Shown here: positions 40,063 through 46,803 of the stretch, one piece after another | Layout of the letters: each line of letters starts with the position of its first letter | Numbering within the stretch: the stretch's first letter is position 1 | Virus record (IMG/VR): IMGVR_UViG_3300031277_000002 | Coordinates: 1-61,854 of that record | Source of the DNA: a virus | DNA length: 61,854 nucleotides | Strand: one strand, 5' to 3' | The notes under the pieces: generated by a model | Database searches by the model: none | The model's input: the letters and a program-made list of their open reading frames with translations, nothing else | What the model was told of the DNA's origin: nothing | Program-made: the position numbers and the translations under genes

Positions 40063-40126
40063 ACAACCCTGCTTAATCGAAGTCCTAAGTTCCTACTTGG
40101 GAGGTTATTAGAGATGGTGGGGTTGT
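40063..40126 (+). ncRNA. Structured RNA module B
   Basis: Closing helix ACAACCC (40063-40069)/GGGTTGT (40120-40126); internal hairpin CCTAAG (40084-40089)/CTTGGG (40096-40101). Preceded by a weak promoter-like GTTTAT-N15-TATAAT at 39972-39998. GC content is higher than surrounding DNA. Confidence 0.5.
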
Positions 40127-40133
40127 TTAAAAT

Positions 40134-40215
40134 GTTGCTATGGTAAGATACCGGACCGCATTCCTCACCCCCCTTTCATATCCGGTGAGGAATAAACCTG
40201 TAATGCCATAGCAAC
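40134..40215 (+). ncRNA. tRNA-like RNA module C
   Basis: Closing helix GTTGCTATGG (40134-40143)/CCATAGCAAC (40206-40215) with internal 9-bp helix ATTCCTCAC (40160-40168)/GTGAGGAAT (40185-40193). The closing helix has the same sequence as modules D and F. Confidence 0.6.
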
Positions 40216-40224
40216 AACTTTTAT

Positions 40225-40333
40225 AGTTGCTATGTGTCAGCACCAATGCGCAAGGGATAGCTTAAGAAGTATAACGCCTGAACAACGGGGAGGTCGTGAA
40301 GCTCACGACTTGTAGGGTTATACCATAGCAACT
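40225..40333 (+). ncRNA. tRNA-like RNA module D
   Basis: Closing helix AGTTGCTATG (40225-40234)/CATAGCAACT (40324-40333). Directly inside is a 7-bp helix GTATAAC (40269-40275)/GTTATAC (40317-40323), the position of a T-arm, which encloses a 9-bp hairpin AGGTCGTGA (40291-40299)/TCACGACTT (40303-40311). No TTCRA loop, so not a canonical tRNA. Confidence 0.6.
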
Positions 40334-40479
40334 ATTTTTGATAGTAATTATTTAGGGAATTAAAAAACCATGTAAGTGTGATTTTATAATTAGCCAAATT
40401 ACCAGTTATTTGCGCCGTATTTATAATAGCCCTACACTAGTTTTTATTATCCTTTTCTTTATTCATGTTATATAACTTA

Positions 40480-41140: not shown

Positions 41141-41304
41141 TGTTAAAAAATAAAGAAATTTTAAAATTGTTAGAAAAAAATACAGAAGCGATTAGAAACT
41201 TTTATGAAGACGCAAAACAAAGGTTGTCGTTTGAAGAAATGGAACAGCTTGACGGAATTATATATGATTGTCAAAAAATAATGGAAATTGTTGAAAAAAA
41301 TTAA
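41140..41304 (+). CDS. Small helical protein (54 aa)
   Basis: ATG overlapping the preceding TAA by one base with GAGGAGAAATA upstream. Helical, charged (EILKLLEKNTEAIRNFYED). Unknown function. Confidence 0.5.
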   Translation: MLKNKEILKLLEKNTEAIRNFYEDAKQRLSFEEMEQLDGIIYDCQKIMEIVEKN

Positions 41305-41321
41305 ATTTTTTTATAATTTTC

Positions 41322-41350
41322 TGGATTAATTAAACAACATGCACTATAAT
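41322..41350 (+). promoter_or_regulatory. Class II phage promoter with leader hairpin (copy 1)
   Basis: TGGATT, 17 bases, TATAAT in the conserved block ATTAATTAAACAACATGCAC before the -10. Downstream leader has a TAAGG/CCTTA hairpin (41358-41376 region) and the RBS AAGCTTGGGAGGCTT. The same promoter plus hairpin occurs at 44855 and 45934; the promoter alone recurs at 56751. Confidence 0.75.
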
Positions 41351-41402
41351 TATTAATGTAAGGCATTTAATACCTTAACATAAAAAGCTTGGGAGGCTTA
41401 AT

Positions 41403-41630
41403 ATGAGTATAAATGGTATAGTAAAGGGTAAAAAAATAAATTATAGGTTTCATAACATGAGTGGAGAACCTATAGTTATAGATGTAAAAAATAATGGTAA
41501 TGTATTAATAATTAGAGACACGCGAGTTTTTCTTGTGGGAGATGTAATCAGAGTTAAATTATTGCCTGAAGATAAATTTTATCAGGTAATGGAACAAAAG
41601 GGATGTTATATTACTTTATGGTCGAATTAA
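41403..41630 (+). CDS. Hypothetical protein (75 aa)
   Basis: ATG after TTGGGAGG. Beta-rich (VKGKKINYRFHNMSGEPIV, VLIIRDTRVFLVGDVIRVK). No family recognised. The first gene of a class II transcript leading to the peptidase. Confidence 0.6.
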   Translation: MSINGIVKGKKINYRFHNMSGEPIVIDVKNNGNVLIIRDTRVFLVGDVIRVKLLPEDKFYQVMEQKGCYITLWSN

Positions 41631-43931: not shown

Positions 43932-43964
43932 TAATTGTATTATTTTTGTGGAGAAAAAATTATT

Positions 43965-44849
43965 TTGAAAAAAGAAAAAAACATAATTGATATATATAGA
44001 GACTCAATAACAAAATATGAAAAATCAAATAAAAAAATAACAGAAGATGAAGAAAAAAAGTTAATAGTTTTGGCCCAAAATGGATCAAAAAAAGCTTTAA
44101 ACATAGTTGTAAAAAATAATTTAAAATTAGTAATTTTTTTTGCAAATAAATATAGTTATAGAAATAATATAAAAATATATTTTGATGATTTAGTTCAGGA
44201 GGGAAACCTCGGGCTGATAAAATCAATAAAAAGGTTTGACGCAACAAAAAATATAAAATTTTCAACCTATTCTTCTTTTTGGATAAAACAAAAAATTTTA
44301 AGATATATAAAAAATCAACCATTTAATAATTGCCCATTTAGGATTCCTGTTCACGTTGTAGAAAAAATTATTAAATTTAAAAAAATAAAAAACGAACTTT
44401 TTGTAAAACTTGGGAAAGAACCAACTATACAAGATTTGGCTGATCATACAGGGAAAGACGTATCTTATGTTACAAAAATTTTTGATTATTTATATTCAAC
44501 ACTGTCAATTGATCAAGACAATTCTAATGATTGCGCATTACAAGAAATATTGAATTTGAAATCTGAATCTATAATAGAAGATGAAAAAAACGAAGATGTT
44601 AATGATATAATATATAAAAACCAATTATTGGAAATAATTAATAACGATTTTCCAAAAATATTAAGCGAAAAACAAATAGAAATAATAAAAATGAAATTTG
44701 GAATTTATTATGGGAAAAGTTATACACTTGACGAAATTGGACACCATTTTAAAAACACTAAAGAAGGAATAAGAATGATATTAAAATTTTCTTTTGAAAA
44801 GATAAGAAAAAATAAAAAATTATCAGAAAAACTTAAAGATTTTTTATAA
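43965..44849 (+). CDS. RNA polymerase sigma factor (sigma-70 family) B
   Basis: TTG start at 43965 with GTGGAG upstream; the in-frame TTG at 43935 has no RBS. A 294-residue protein. Region 2 (NLKLVIFFANKYSY, DDLVQEGNLGLIKSI, TKNIKFSTYSSFWIKQKI), region 3 (KIKNELFVKLGKEPTIQDLADH) and region 4 (LSEKQIEIIKMKFGIYY, LDEIGHHFKNTKEGIRMI). It differs from sigma A at 22235 in region 4, so it may read another promoter class. It lies next to the class II promoter units. Confidence 0.92.
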   Translation: MKKEKNIIDIYRDSITKYEKSNKKITEDEEKKLIVLAQNGSKKALNIVVKNNLKLVIFFANKYSYRNNIKIYFDDLVQEGNLGLIKSIKRFDATKNIKFSTYSSFWIKQKILRYIKNQPFNNCPFRIPVHVVEKIIKFKKIKNELFVKLGKEPTIQDLADHTGKDVSYVTKIFDYLYSTLSIDQDNSNDCALQEILNLKSESIIEDEKNEDVNDIIYKNQLLEIINNDFPKILSEKQIEIIKMKFGIYYGKSYTLDEIGHHFKNTKEGIRMILKFSFEKIRKNKKLSEKLKDFL

Positions 44850-44854
44850 AAAAC

Positions 44855-44883
44855 TGGATTAATTAAACACAATGCACTATAAT
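44855..44883 (+). promoter_or_regulatory. Class II phage promoter with leader hairpin (copy 2)
   Basis: TGGATT, 17 bases, TATAAT, then TAAGGTA/TGCCTTA leader hairpin and RBS ACTTGGGAG before the next ATG. Confidence 0.75.
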
Positions 44884-44932
44884 TATTAATGTAAGGTATT
44901 TAATGCCTTAACAAAAACTTGGGAGATATAAT

Positions 44933-45163
44933 ATGATAGTAGTAACAAAAAAAGAACTTATAAGAATAGTAAGAGATGTAATGTCTGGTAGATCAGGTCA
45001 TACTATTGGTAACTTCAGAAGAATTAAAAGAGGCGAATGGGAAGTTGAAACATCAATAGGAAATCAATATCCTTTTGATTCTAATTCTTCAAACTGGGCT
45101 AATTTTAGACATGATAGAAACGAAATGACATTGAAAGAAGCAAAAGAATATATAGATGCATAA
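44933..45163 (+). CDS. Hypothetical protein (76 aa)
   Basis: ATG after ACTTGGGAGATATAAT. Contains IVRDVMSGRSGHTIGNF and YPFDSNSSNWANFRHDRN. First gene of a unit in which a structured RNA follows five bases after the stop. Confidence 0.6.
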   Translation: MIVVTKKELIRIVRDVMSGRSGHTIGNFRRIKRGEWEVETSIGNQYPFDSNSSNWANFRHDRNEMTLKEAKEYIDA

Positions 45164-45168
45164 TAACC

Positions 45169-45276
45169 CTCCCAGGTTGCTTAGGGCCTTCGGGTCCCTG
45201 GCTACCTGGGTAAGTAATGCAGCCAACGGAGTGTCGCAAGCCCTCGTATAATGCAGAGCGTAATTTAACTTGGGAG
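45169..45276 (+). promoter_or_regulatory. Structured RNA switch, copy 1 (SD-sequestering)
   Basis: CTCCCAGGT (45169-45177) can pair either with ACCTGGG (45204-45210) or with ACTTGGGAG (45268-45276), the Shine-Dalgarno of the next gene. Inside the first helix is an AGGGCC-TTCG-GGTCCCT hairpin. GGTTGC (45175-45180) can pair with GCAGCC (45219-45224). It is GC-rich in AT-rich DNA and recurs at 46434. Confidence 0.8.
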
Positions 45277-45283
45277 TAAAAAT

Positions 45284-45457
45284 ATGACTAGATATTTTAA
45301 TAACTATAAAGAAGCGTTAGAGTTTGCTAAAGAATTAAAAATTGATGAGCCTGAATACGCTGACGATGTTCAGGTTTCAGAAACATGTTCTATATCTTTT
45401 GGAATATGGTCAAGAAAAGATTTAGGAAATTATGTAGTAACTAATGAAACAGAATAA
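45284..45457 (+). CDS. Small protein regulated by RNA switch (57 aa)
   Basis: ATG seven bases after TTGGGAG, which is the 3' arm of the RNA element. Sequence MTRYFNNYKEALEFAKELKI, then acidic DEPEYADDVQVSETC. Small acidic protein of unknown function. Expression would depend on the RNA fold. Confidence 0.6.
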   Translation: MTRYFNNYKEALEFAKELKIDEPEYADDVQVSETCSISFGIWSRKDLGNYVVTNETE

Positions 45458-45470
45458 TAAGGGTTGAATT

Positions 45471-45734
45471 ATGAATGCTAATATTATTTATGATGTCATT
45501 AATTATAAAGATGGTTTTGGTAAAGTAATATGCTTAGAATTCATTAATAAAGACAGAAAAGTTGTAAAAAAAATTACTGATGATTATTATGAGGAATATA
45601 AAAGAGATACAAACGGAATAGTTTCTGAATATAAAGATTCAACTGGGTATAGATATAAAATAAAAAAATCTATAAAAGATATAAATAAAGAGTTTTCTAA
45701 CAACATTAAATCTTTTTTGAGAGATTTAAAATGA
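45471..45734 (+). CDS. Hypothetical protein (87 aa)
   Basis: ATG after AAGGGTTGAATT. Predicted beta then helix (DGFGKVICLEFINKDRKVV, EYKDSTGYRYKIKKS). Overlaps the next gene. Confidence 0.55.
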   Translation: MNANIIYDVINYKDGFGKVICLEFINKDRKVVKKITDDYYEEYKRDTNGIVSEYKDSTGYRYKIKKSIKDINKEFSNNIKSFLRDLK

Positions 45735-45928
45735 CAGATATTCAAATAAAAAACTGGAAACATTTTATGAATGATCAAATAGAAGAAATAAAAAAACACA
45801 ATTGGATAGAATCTGAAAAGGCAGGACGAGATGTAAGTTGTGTTTCAAATTATGAATGGATAAACAAGTATGCAAAAAAATTCAAAGATGAATGGTTGTT
45901 AAATCATCCAGATGAAAATTTTTTATAA
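45731..45928 (+). CDS. Conserved small phage protein (65 aa)
   Basis: NWKHFMNDQIEEIKKHNW, DVSCVSNYEWINKYAKKFKDEW. This resembles the small protein at 56594 (FMHDQEIEILKY, WIKKYAKKFRNKW), so the two are paralogues and likely belong to a conserved phage family of unknown role. Confidence 0.6.
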   Translation: MTDIQIKNWKHFMNDQIEEIKKHNWIESEKAGRDVSCVSNYEWINKYAKKFKDEWLLNHPDENFL

Positions 45929-45933
45929 TTTTC

Positions 45934-45962
45934 TGGATTAATTAAACAACATGCACTATAAT
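45934..45962 (+). promoter_or_regulatory. Class II phage promoter with leader hairpin (copy 3)
   Basis: TGGATT, 17 bases, TATAAT; near-identical to copy 1, followed by TAAGGTA/TACTTTA and AAGCTTGGGAGGCTT. Confidence 0.75.
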
Positions 45963-46014
45963 TATTAATGTAAGGTATTTAATACTTTAACATCAAAAGC
46001 TTGGGAGGCTTAAT

Positions 46015-46428
46015 ATGAAATTTTATAAGATTGATGGACATTATACTACATATGTATCAATTGATGATACAATACAAGCGACCGTTGAAGATGCAATTAA
46101 TGCAGATTGGTCATTAGATGATATATATGGGTCATCATTGTACGAATATCTTGATGAAAACGGTGAGTTATTAAAATCAGAACTTGATGAAAATCTTGGT
46201 GATTATATTATTGTTTCATATTGGGATGGTAATAATTGGCAACATGATTTTTATGACAGATGTGAGCTTAAAATAGTAGAAGGCGAAGTAATTTCATTAT
46301 CACATCCTTCACCAGCATATTATTTTAATTATGAAATAGCACTAGAAGATGGTGAAAAAATAAAAGTAACCCAATCAAACATGTCTGGATCATTATCACC
46401 TTATTATAGAGAAGATACAGAAGAATAA
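46015..46428 (+). CDS. Hypothetical acidic protein (137 aa)
   Basis: ATG after TTGGGAGG. Acidic (SLYEYLDENGELLKSELDEN, VEGEVISLSHPSPAYY). Unknown function; followed six bases later by the second RNA element. Confidence 0.6.
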   Translation: MKFYKIDGHYTTYVSIDDTIQATVEDAINADWSLDDIYGSSLYEYLDENGELLKSELDENLGDYIIVSYWDGNNWQHDFYDRCELKIVEGEVISLSHPSPAYYFNYEIALEDGEKIKVTQSNMSGSLSPYYREDTEE

Positions 46429-46433
46429 CAACC

Positions 46434-46540
46434 CTCCCAGGTTGCCTAGGGCTTTCGAGCCCCGGGCTATCTGGGTGAGTAATGCAGCCGACGGCGGTCA
46501 CAAGCCCGCGCGTAATGCAGAGTGAAAAATAACTTGGGAG
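46434..46540 (+). promoter_or_regulatory. Structured RNA switch, copy 2 (SD-sequestering)
   Basis: CTCCCAGGT (46434-46442) can pair with ATCTGGG (46469-46475) or with ACTTGGGAG (46532-46540), the RBS of the next gene. The hairpin is GGGCT-TTCG-AGCCC here, whereas copy 1 has a C-G-closed version: a compensating change. Core AGTAATGCAGCC and CAAGCCC...TAATGCAG blocks are shared with copy 1. Confidence 0.8.
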
Positions 46541-46547
46541 ATATAGA

Positions 46548-46703
46548 ATGGAACAATTAAATGAATTAAATGAAAAATATACAAATAATCGTATTGTTGC
46601 ATATCGAATTATTGATTCTATTGATAAATCAGATTTACTTGATTTATCATATGATGAATTATTGTGTCTTGCAAAATCAATTGTTGATGAAATTTATAAT
46701 TAA
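46548..46703 (+). CDS. Small protein regulated by RNA switch (51 aa)
   Basis: ATG seven bases after the TTGGGAG arm of the RNA element. Helical acidic protein MEQLNELNEKYTNNRIVAYR then SIDKSDLLDLSYDEL. It occupies the same position relative to the RNA as the gene at 45284, though the proteins do not look alike. Confidence 0.6.
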   Translation: MEQLNELNEKYTNNRIVAYRIIDSIDKSDLLDLSYDELLCLAKSIVDEIYN

Positions 46704-46803
46704 CCCTGATGAGTCTTTGAAAATTAAGACGAAACACGCTTTTAACCAAGCGTGTCGGTTATATAAATTAAAAGTTTGGGAATTAATTTTTGGAGAAAAT
46801 TAA
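46687..46803 (+). CDS. Possible small basic protein (38 aa)
   Basis: Overlaps the end of the preceding gene without a clear RBS. Reads MKFIINPDESLKIKTKHAFN then ACRLYKLKVWELIFGEN. A perfect 8-bp hairpin (ACACGCTT/AAGCGTGT, 46734-46755) lies inside. Could be read-through coupled or spurious. Confidence 0.3.
   Translation: MKFIINPDESLKIKTKHAFNQACRLYKLKVWELIFGEN

Follow-up and report, generated by a model that had tools for sequence, protein, structure and literature searches.

Gene layout and two copies of one RNA

The window, i.e. the whole stretch of virus DNA analysed here (61,854 bases), holds two diverged copies of one RNA, at 45169-45276 and 46434-46540. Both were present as described in a sequence-only reading of the same DNA, and were found independently as direct repeats (repeat families D2 and D4). 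Each copy follows the same order, consisting of the stop codon of an upstream gene, at most 5 nt, CTCCCAGGTT, a hairpin, a conserved block, AACTTGGGAG, and the start codon of a downstream gene (45284 or 46548). The features of the two copies and of their flanking genes are as follows.

44933..45163, + strand: ORF upstream of copy 1, 76 aa; stop codon 5 nt ahead of CTCCCAGGTT
45169..45178, + strand: copy 1, 5' arm CTCCCAGGTT, comprising the anti-Shine-Dalgarno (anti-SD) arm and the 5' side of the near hairpin
45171..45210, + strand: copy 1, hairpin abutting the predicted cut site (CCCAGGU ... UUCG ... ACCUGGG)
45215..45260, + strand: copy 1, putative twister core UAA-UGCA-GCC...GUCGCAAGCCC...UGCA-GAGCG (Rfam twister-P1, model R1)
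45267..45276, + strand: copy 1, AACTTGGGAG, comprising the SD of ORF 45284-45457 and the 3' side of the outer helix
45284..45457, + strand: ORF downstream of copy 1, 57 aa, with no family above chance
46015..46428, + strand: ORF upstream of copy 2, 137 aa, with a weak match to DUF7456; stop codon 5 nt ahead of CTCCCAGGTT
46434..46443, + strand: copy 2, 5' arm CTCCCAGGTT
46436..46475, + strand: copy 2, hairpin abutting the predicted cut site
46480..46524, + strand: copy 2, putative twister core (Rfam twister-P1, model R1)
46531..46540, + strand: copy 2, AACTTGGGAG, comprising the SD of ORF 46548-46703 and the 3' side of the outer helix
46548..46703, + strand: ORF downstream of copy 2, 51 aa, with no known family

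The near arms, with which the 5' arm closes the hairpin, are ACCTGGG at 45204-45210 in copy 1 and ATCTGGG at 46469-46475 in copy 2.

Identification of a twister core

Judged from its sequence, the block AGUAAUGCAGCC...UAAUGCAG that forms the 3' half of each copy is a type-P1 twister self-cleaving ribozyme. The Rfam twister-P1 family matched copy 2 with 35.2 bits (E=2.3e-5) and copy 1 with 23.4 bits, neither copy reaching the gathering score of 67.2. A covariance model (R1) built from 43 other viral (phage) twisters, all close relatives of the window being excluded, gave 58.2 bits (E=7e-17) for copy 2 and 46.5 bits (E=6e-13) for copy 1, and matched nothing besides these two copies when the whole window was searched. 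The sequence-only reading was right in proposing a structured RNA. Its statement that the element matches no known class is refuted by the Rfam and R1 matches, and what it had likened to a riboswitch or protein-binding leader is, in its 3' half, a predicted ribozyme. None of the riboswitch families of Rfam matched the region, even at E up to 10.

Rfam matches to Mir-584, snoRNA and CRISPR-DR families were at chance level and were discarded, as were matches to GGGTGAGTAATGCAGCC in bacterial genomes, which showed no excess over chance for 17 bases in 257 Gb.

Among the 43 phage twisters, pairing in P1, P2, P4 and the CNC/GNG pseudoknot held for 91.5-100% of cells, and double changes numbered 97 versus 25 in shuffles; the L1-L4 pseudoknot (CNC with GNG) was paired in 100% and displayed compensatory changes. 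This pseudoknot is also compensated between the window copies (GUCGC/GAGCG and GUCAC/GAGUG, i.e. G-C and A-U), and P4 differs compensatorily as well. The bases of the L2-L4 pseudoknot are present and invariant, and hence offer no covariation to read. On the model of solved twisters, cleavage is predicted at a U^A bond, 45215^45216 in copy 1 and 46480^46481 in copy 2; each of these sites lies in a gap flanked by two small genes.

A hairpin abutting the cut site

The departure from a standard twister lies directly 5' of these cuts, where the usual closing helix P1 is absent and the space is occupied by the hairpin. Of three modelled P1 pairs adjoining the cut, copy 1 forms one and copy 2 none, while other twisters pair in 91.5% of cells. 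The related phage contigs G001 (three copies) and G002 (one copy) carry the same hairpin and core. Compensating changes had been claimed between the two window copies in both parts of the hairpin; that at the hairpin tip (C-G to U-A) stands, while in the lower stem the change is only from G-C to G-U. The test that the sequence-only reading had set for itself, a search for homologues with compensating mutations, was run, and homologues do exist: over six close copies the near hairpin is 92.6% paired and contains two doubly changed pairs. With n=6 only, this pairing is not above a column-shuffle control and is far above slid versions.

Viral twisters as a group tend to have a hairpin set against the cut. 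Across a non-redundant set of 118 of them, the 36-nt segment immediately 5' of the cut had a mean minimum free energy (MFE) of -10.8 kcal/mol (z -1.70), and 75% of sites fell below -8 kcal/mol, versus 12-22% (about 18%) in shifted windows. Control windows shifted by at least 18 nt had a mean MFE of about -5 (z about -0.2), and random windows from other same-strand gaps on the twister-bearing contigs a mean of -5.5, with 22% below -8. Given that 62% of gaps hold some hairpin, it is the position against the cut, rather than the mere occurrence of a hairpin, that is the special feature. A hairpin-plus-UAA pattern returned many matches in viral contigs that are not twisters. The distance from hairpin end to cut is 3 nt (median) in viral twisters, and TTTT occurs at only 4 of 117 sites, so that few of these look like terminators. 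An intrinsic terminator was ruled out, there being no U run after the hairpin. Viral twisters are intercistronic and in sense orientation, with an SD and start codon no more than 80 nt downstream in 67 of 109 cases versus 13 antisense.

A neighbouring hammerhead and other RNA elements

A second candidate ribozyme lies just downstream of copy 2.

46679..46761, + strand: hammerhead ribozyme, RAGATH-1 type, predicted cut 46756^46757

Its RAGATH-1 score of 36.4 bits (E=8e-4) is below the gathering score of 56.3, and its core and stems II and III can be read directly from the sequence. A 30-nt core recurs without mismatch in 51 stretches of viral contigs, and the crAss-like phages cr272_1, cr131_1 and cr53_1 share exact matches of 32-35 nt with the hammerhead. 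Because the hammerhead core lies 5' of its own cut, the upstream product would already end in stem III. Twister cores lie 3' of their cut, and an added hairpin is therefore needed to cap their upstream product. The window twisters and the hammerhead would thus both leave an upstream message ending in a hairpin.

Several further elements were observed in the vicinity. In phage G002 (L163, about 1525-1575) a hammerhead lies directly before the homologue of window gene 41403, and the window gene itself has a promoter-like leader at the corresponding place; gene gaps appear to swap leaders and ribozymes with one another. The leader is a 107-nt repeat with a small hairpin and a CTTGGGAG SD, present in three copies (41300-41406, 44833-44939 and 45912-46018), of which that at 44833 overlaps the end of a sigma-factor ORF (43935-44849). 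A DUF3800-VIII RNA at 40063-40126 (57.3 bits, above gathering) also contains CTTGGGAG. Two tandem non-coding stretches at 40133-40337, which gave no Rfam match, are each closed by the same GUUGCUAUG/CAUAGCAAC stem; their core, TGTCAGCACNAATGCGCAAGGG, was found among viral contigs only in the two related phages.

An outer helix over the Shine-Dalgarno sequence

The 5' arm CUCCCAGGUU can pair either with the near arm or with the SD segment AACUUGGGAG, about 90 nt on, and the two pairings are, as had been proposed, mutually exclusive, since both use the same arm. The far arms AACTTGGGAG contain the SDs of ORFs 45284 and 46548, and the arm can thus bury the SD of the following gene. The arm-SD duplexes have predicted energies of -17.1 and -17.5 kcal/mol, which were equalled by 1 of 5000 and 0 of 5000 shuffled arms.

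This outer SD helix is not universal among the close copies. It is strong in three of the six (-17.1 to -17.5) and weak (-4.6 to -10.6) in the remaining three (L001a, L001b and L005), in which it is effectively lost, and the six reveal neither covariation nor compensatory change in it. Furthermore, CTTGGGAG is also the SD of three leaders lacking a cis arm (41403, 44933 and 46015), and the arm pairs about equally well or better with these armless SDs elsewhere in the phage. Taken alone, these observations would lead us to read the SD helix as incidental.

Its recurrence elsewhere suggests otherwise. Using swapped-partner controls, a contiguous outer helix was found at p<=0.05 in 4 of 7 P1-poor twisters with a hairpin at the cut (the window and L009, both among the four, are relatives) versus 2 of 51 P1-bearing twisters; these p-values are suggestive only, as the contiguous-helix test was a second choice, run after a free-duplex swap test that was too loose (2 of 12 P1-poor twisters at p<=0.05). 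In L143 an outer helix of UCUCCCAGU with GCUGGGAGG, and in L144 one of 14 bp over AAAAGGGGAAA, can cover the SD of the next ORF. Beyond the ribozyme, these two have almost no nucleotide similarity to the window, apart from one weak 66-nt match in L143. L046, a distant relative of L144, has a weaker outer helix (p 0.13), and L223-L225 supplied no clear further case. In eight further phage twisters, an SD-like sequence lies buried within an ordinary P1. Based on the recurrence in P1-poor twisters of unrelated phages and the placement of SD-like sequences inside P1 elsewhere, we take the SD helix to be a displaced P1 that is probably, though not certainly, functional.

Proposed mechanism and alternative explanations

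We consider it somewhat more probable than otherwise that each copy is a twister lying between co-transcribed small genes, with P1 replaced by the hairpin and the outer helix (CUCCCAGGUU/AACUUGGGAG), whose cut splits the mRNA and frees the SD. The outer helix could enclose hairpin and core in the manner of a displaced P1. Self-cleavage, if it takes place in vivo, would divide the polycistronic mRNA between the two small genes, leaving (i) an upstream message that ends in the hairpin and GAGU with a cyclic phosphate, and (ii) a downstream message that begins with the folded core and a 5'-OH. The hairpin-capped 3' end of the former should resist 3' exonucleases. The anti-SD arm would stay on the upstream piece and be recaptured there by the near arm, and as a consequence of its removal the cut should leave the SD free. 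A counterpoint to such gating of the SD is that the near hairpin, being the earlier of the two to be transcribed, should have the kinetic advantage. More tentatively, these RNAs may represent a subclass of phage twisters in which P1 lies outside the hairpin and buries the SD, such that cutting acts as a one-shot translational switch that activates the downstream gene and yields a protected upstream 3' end.

A serious alternative, which we regard as possible and yet lean against, is that the ribozymes serve purely in mRNA processing and end protection, complementarity to the SD being incidental because CTTGGGAG is the common SD cassette of this phage. The generality of the hairpin among viral twisters, the absence of the SD helix from 3 of 6 close copies, the occurrence of the same SD without an arm, and the similarly hairpin-ended (stem III) 5' product of the neighbouring hammerhead are all consistent with this explanation. 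Against it speak the recurrence of an SD-covering outer helix in P1-poor twisters of unrelated phages and the SD-like sequences inside P1 in eight other phage twisters.

It is improbable that the two copies are degenerate, inactive twister remnants kept as structured spacers. Loss of P1, Rfam scores below gathering, and an extra U beside P4 in copy 1 could be taken as signs of decay; however, copy 2 keeps all invariant core bases, the pseudoknot and P4 differences between the copies are compensated, and the variant core of copy 1 is identical in another phage (L009). It is very unlikely that the element is, as the sequence-only reading had envisaged, a riboswitch or leader whose two folds open and close the SD in response to a ligand or protein. 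In favour of this, the exclusive folds are of comparable predicted energy, and minimum-energy folding (pseudoknots ignored) gives copy 1 the SD helix and copy 2 the near hairpin. Against it, the conserved block separating the arms is a full twister core and no Rfam riboswitch aptamer, and nothing besides that core is conserved.

Comparison with known systems

Both twister and hammerhead ribozymes of bacteria show enrichment near each other and in the neighbourhood of certain genes, above all those of Mu-like phages, the reason being described as unknown (PMC10085705). An optional "P0" stem of twisters is named in reviews, and one review, citing Kosutic 2015, gives P1 as dispensable for cleavage (PMC6154101). 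The literature searched yielded nothing relevant on any SD-related or intercistronic role of a phage ribozyme; as subscription journals lay outside its coverage, novelty of the hairpin is not proven. A hairpin at most viral twister cuts and an SD-burying helix in several suggest testable jobs for phage twisters, namely the making of mRNA 3' ends and the freeing of ribosome-binding sites.

With type-P1 twisters (RF03160) the window copies share the U^AA site, P2, P4, the GUCNCAAGCCC loop, the GAGNG strand and the pseudoknot pairing, as well as a location near gene boundaries in phage. They differ from that family in lacking P1 at the cut, in place of which they have a hairpin and an SD-including outer helix, and in their sub-gathering Rfam score. 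The hammerheads of phages, including the RAGATH-1 type (RF03152), are likewise intercistronic self-cleaving RNAs, one of them in the same gene cluster, whose upstream product would end in a hairpin, but their fold is unrelated and their core lies 5' of its own cut. A parallel to the proposed role is offered by phage twisters with an SD inside P1 (L003, L004, L006, L052 and others). There too the strand 5' of the cut can bury the SD of the following gene, from which cleavage would separate it; in those twisters, however, the SD helix is the ordinary P1 adjoining the cut.
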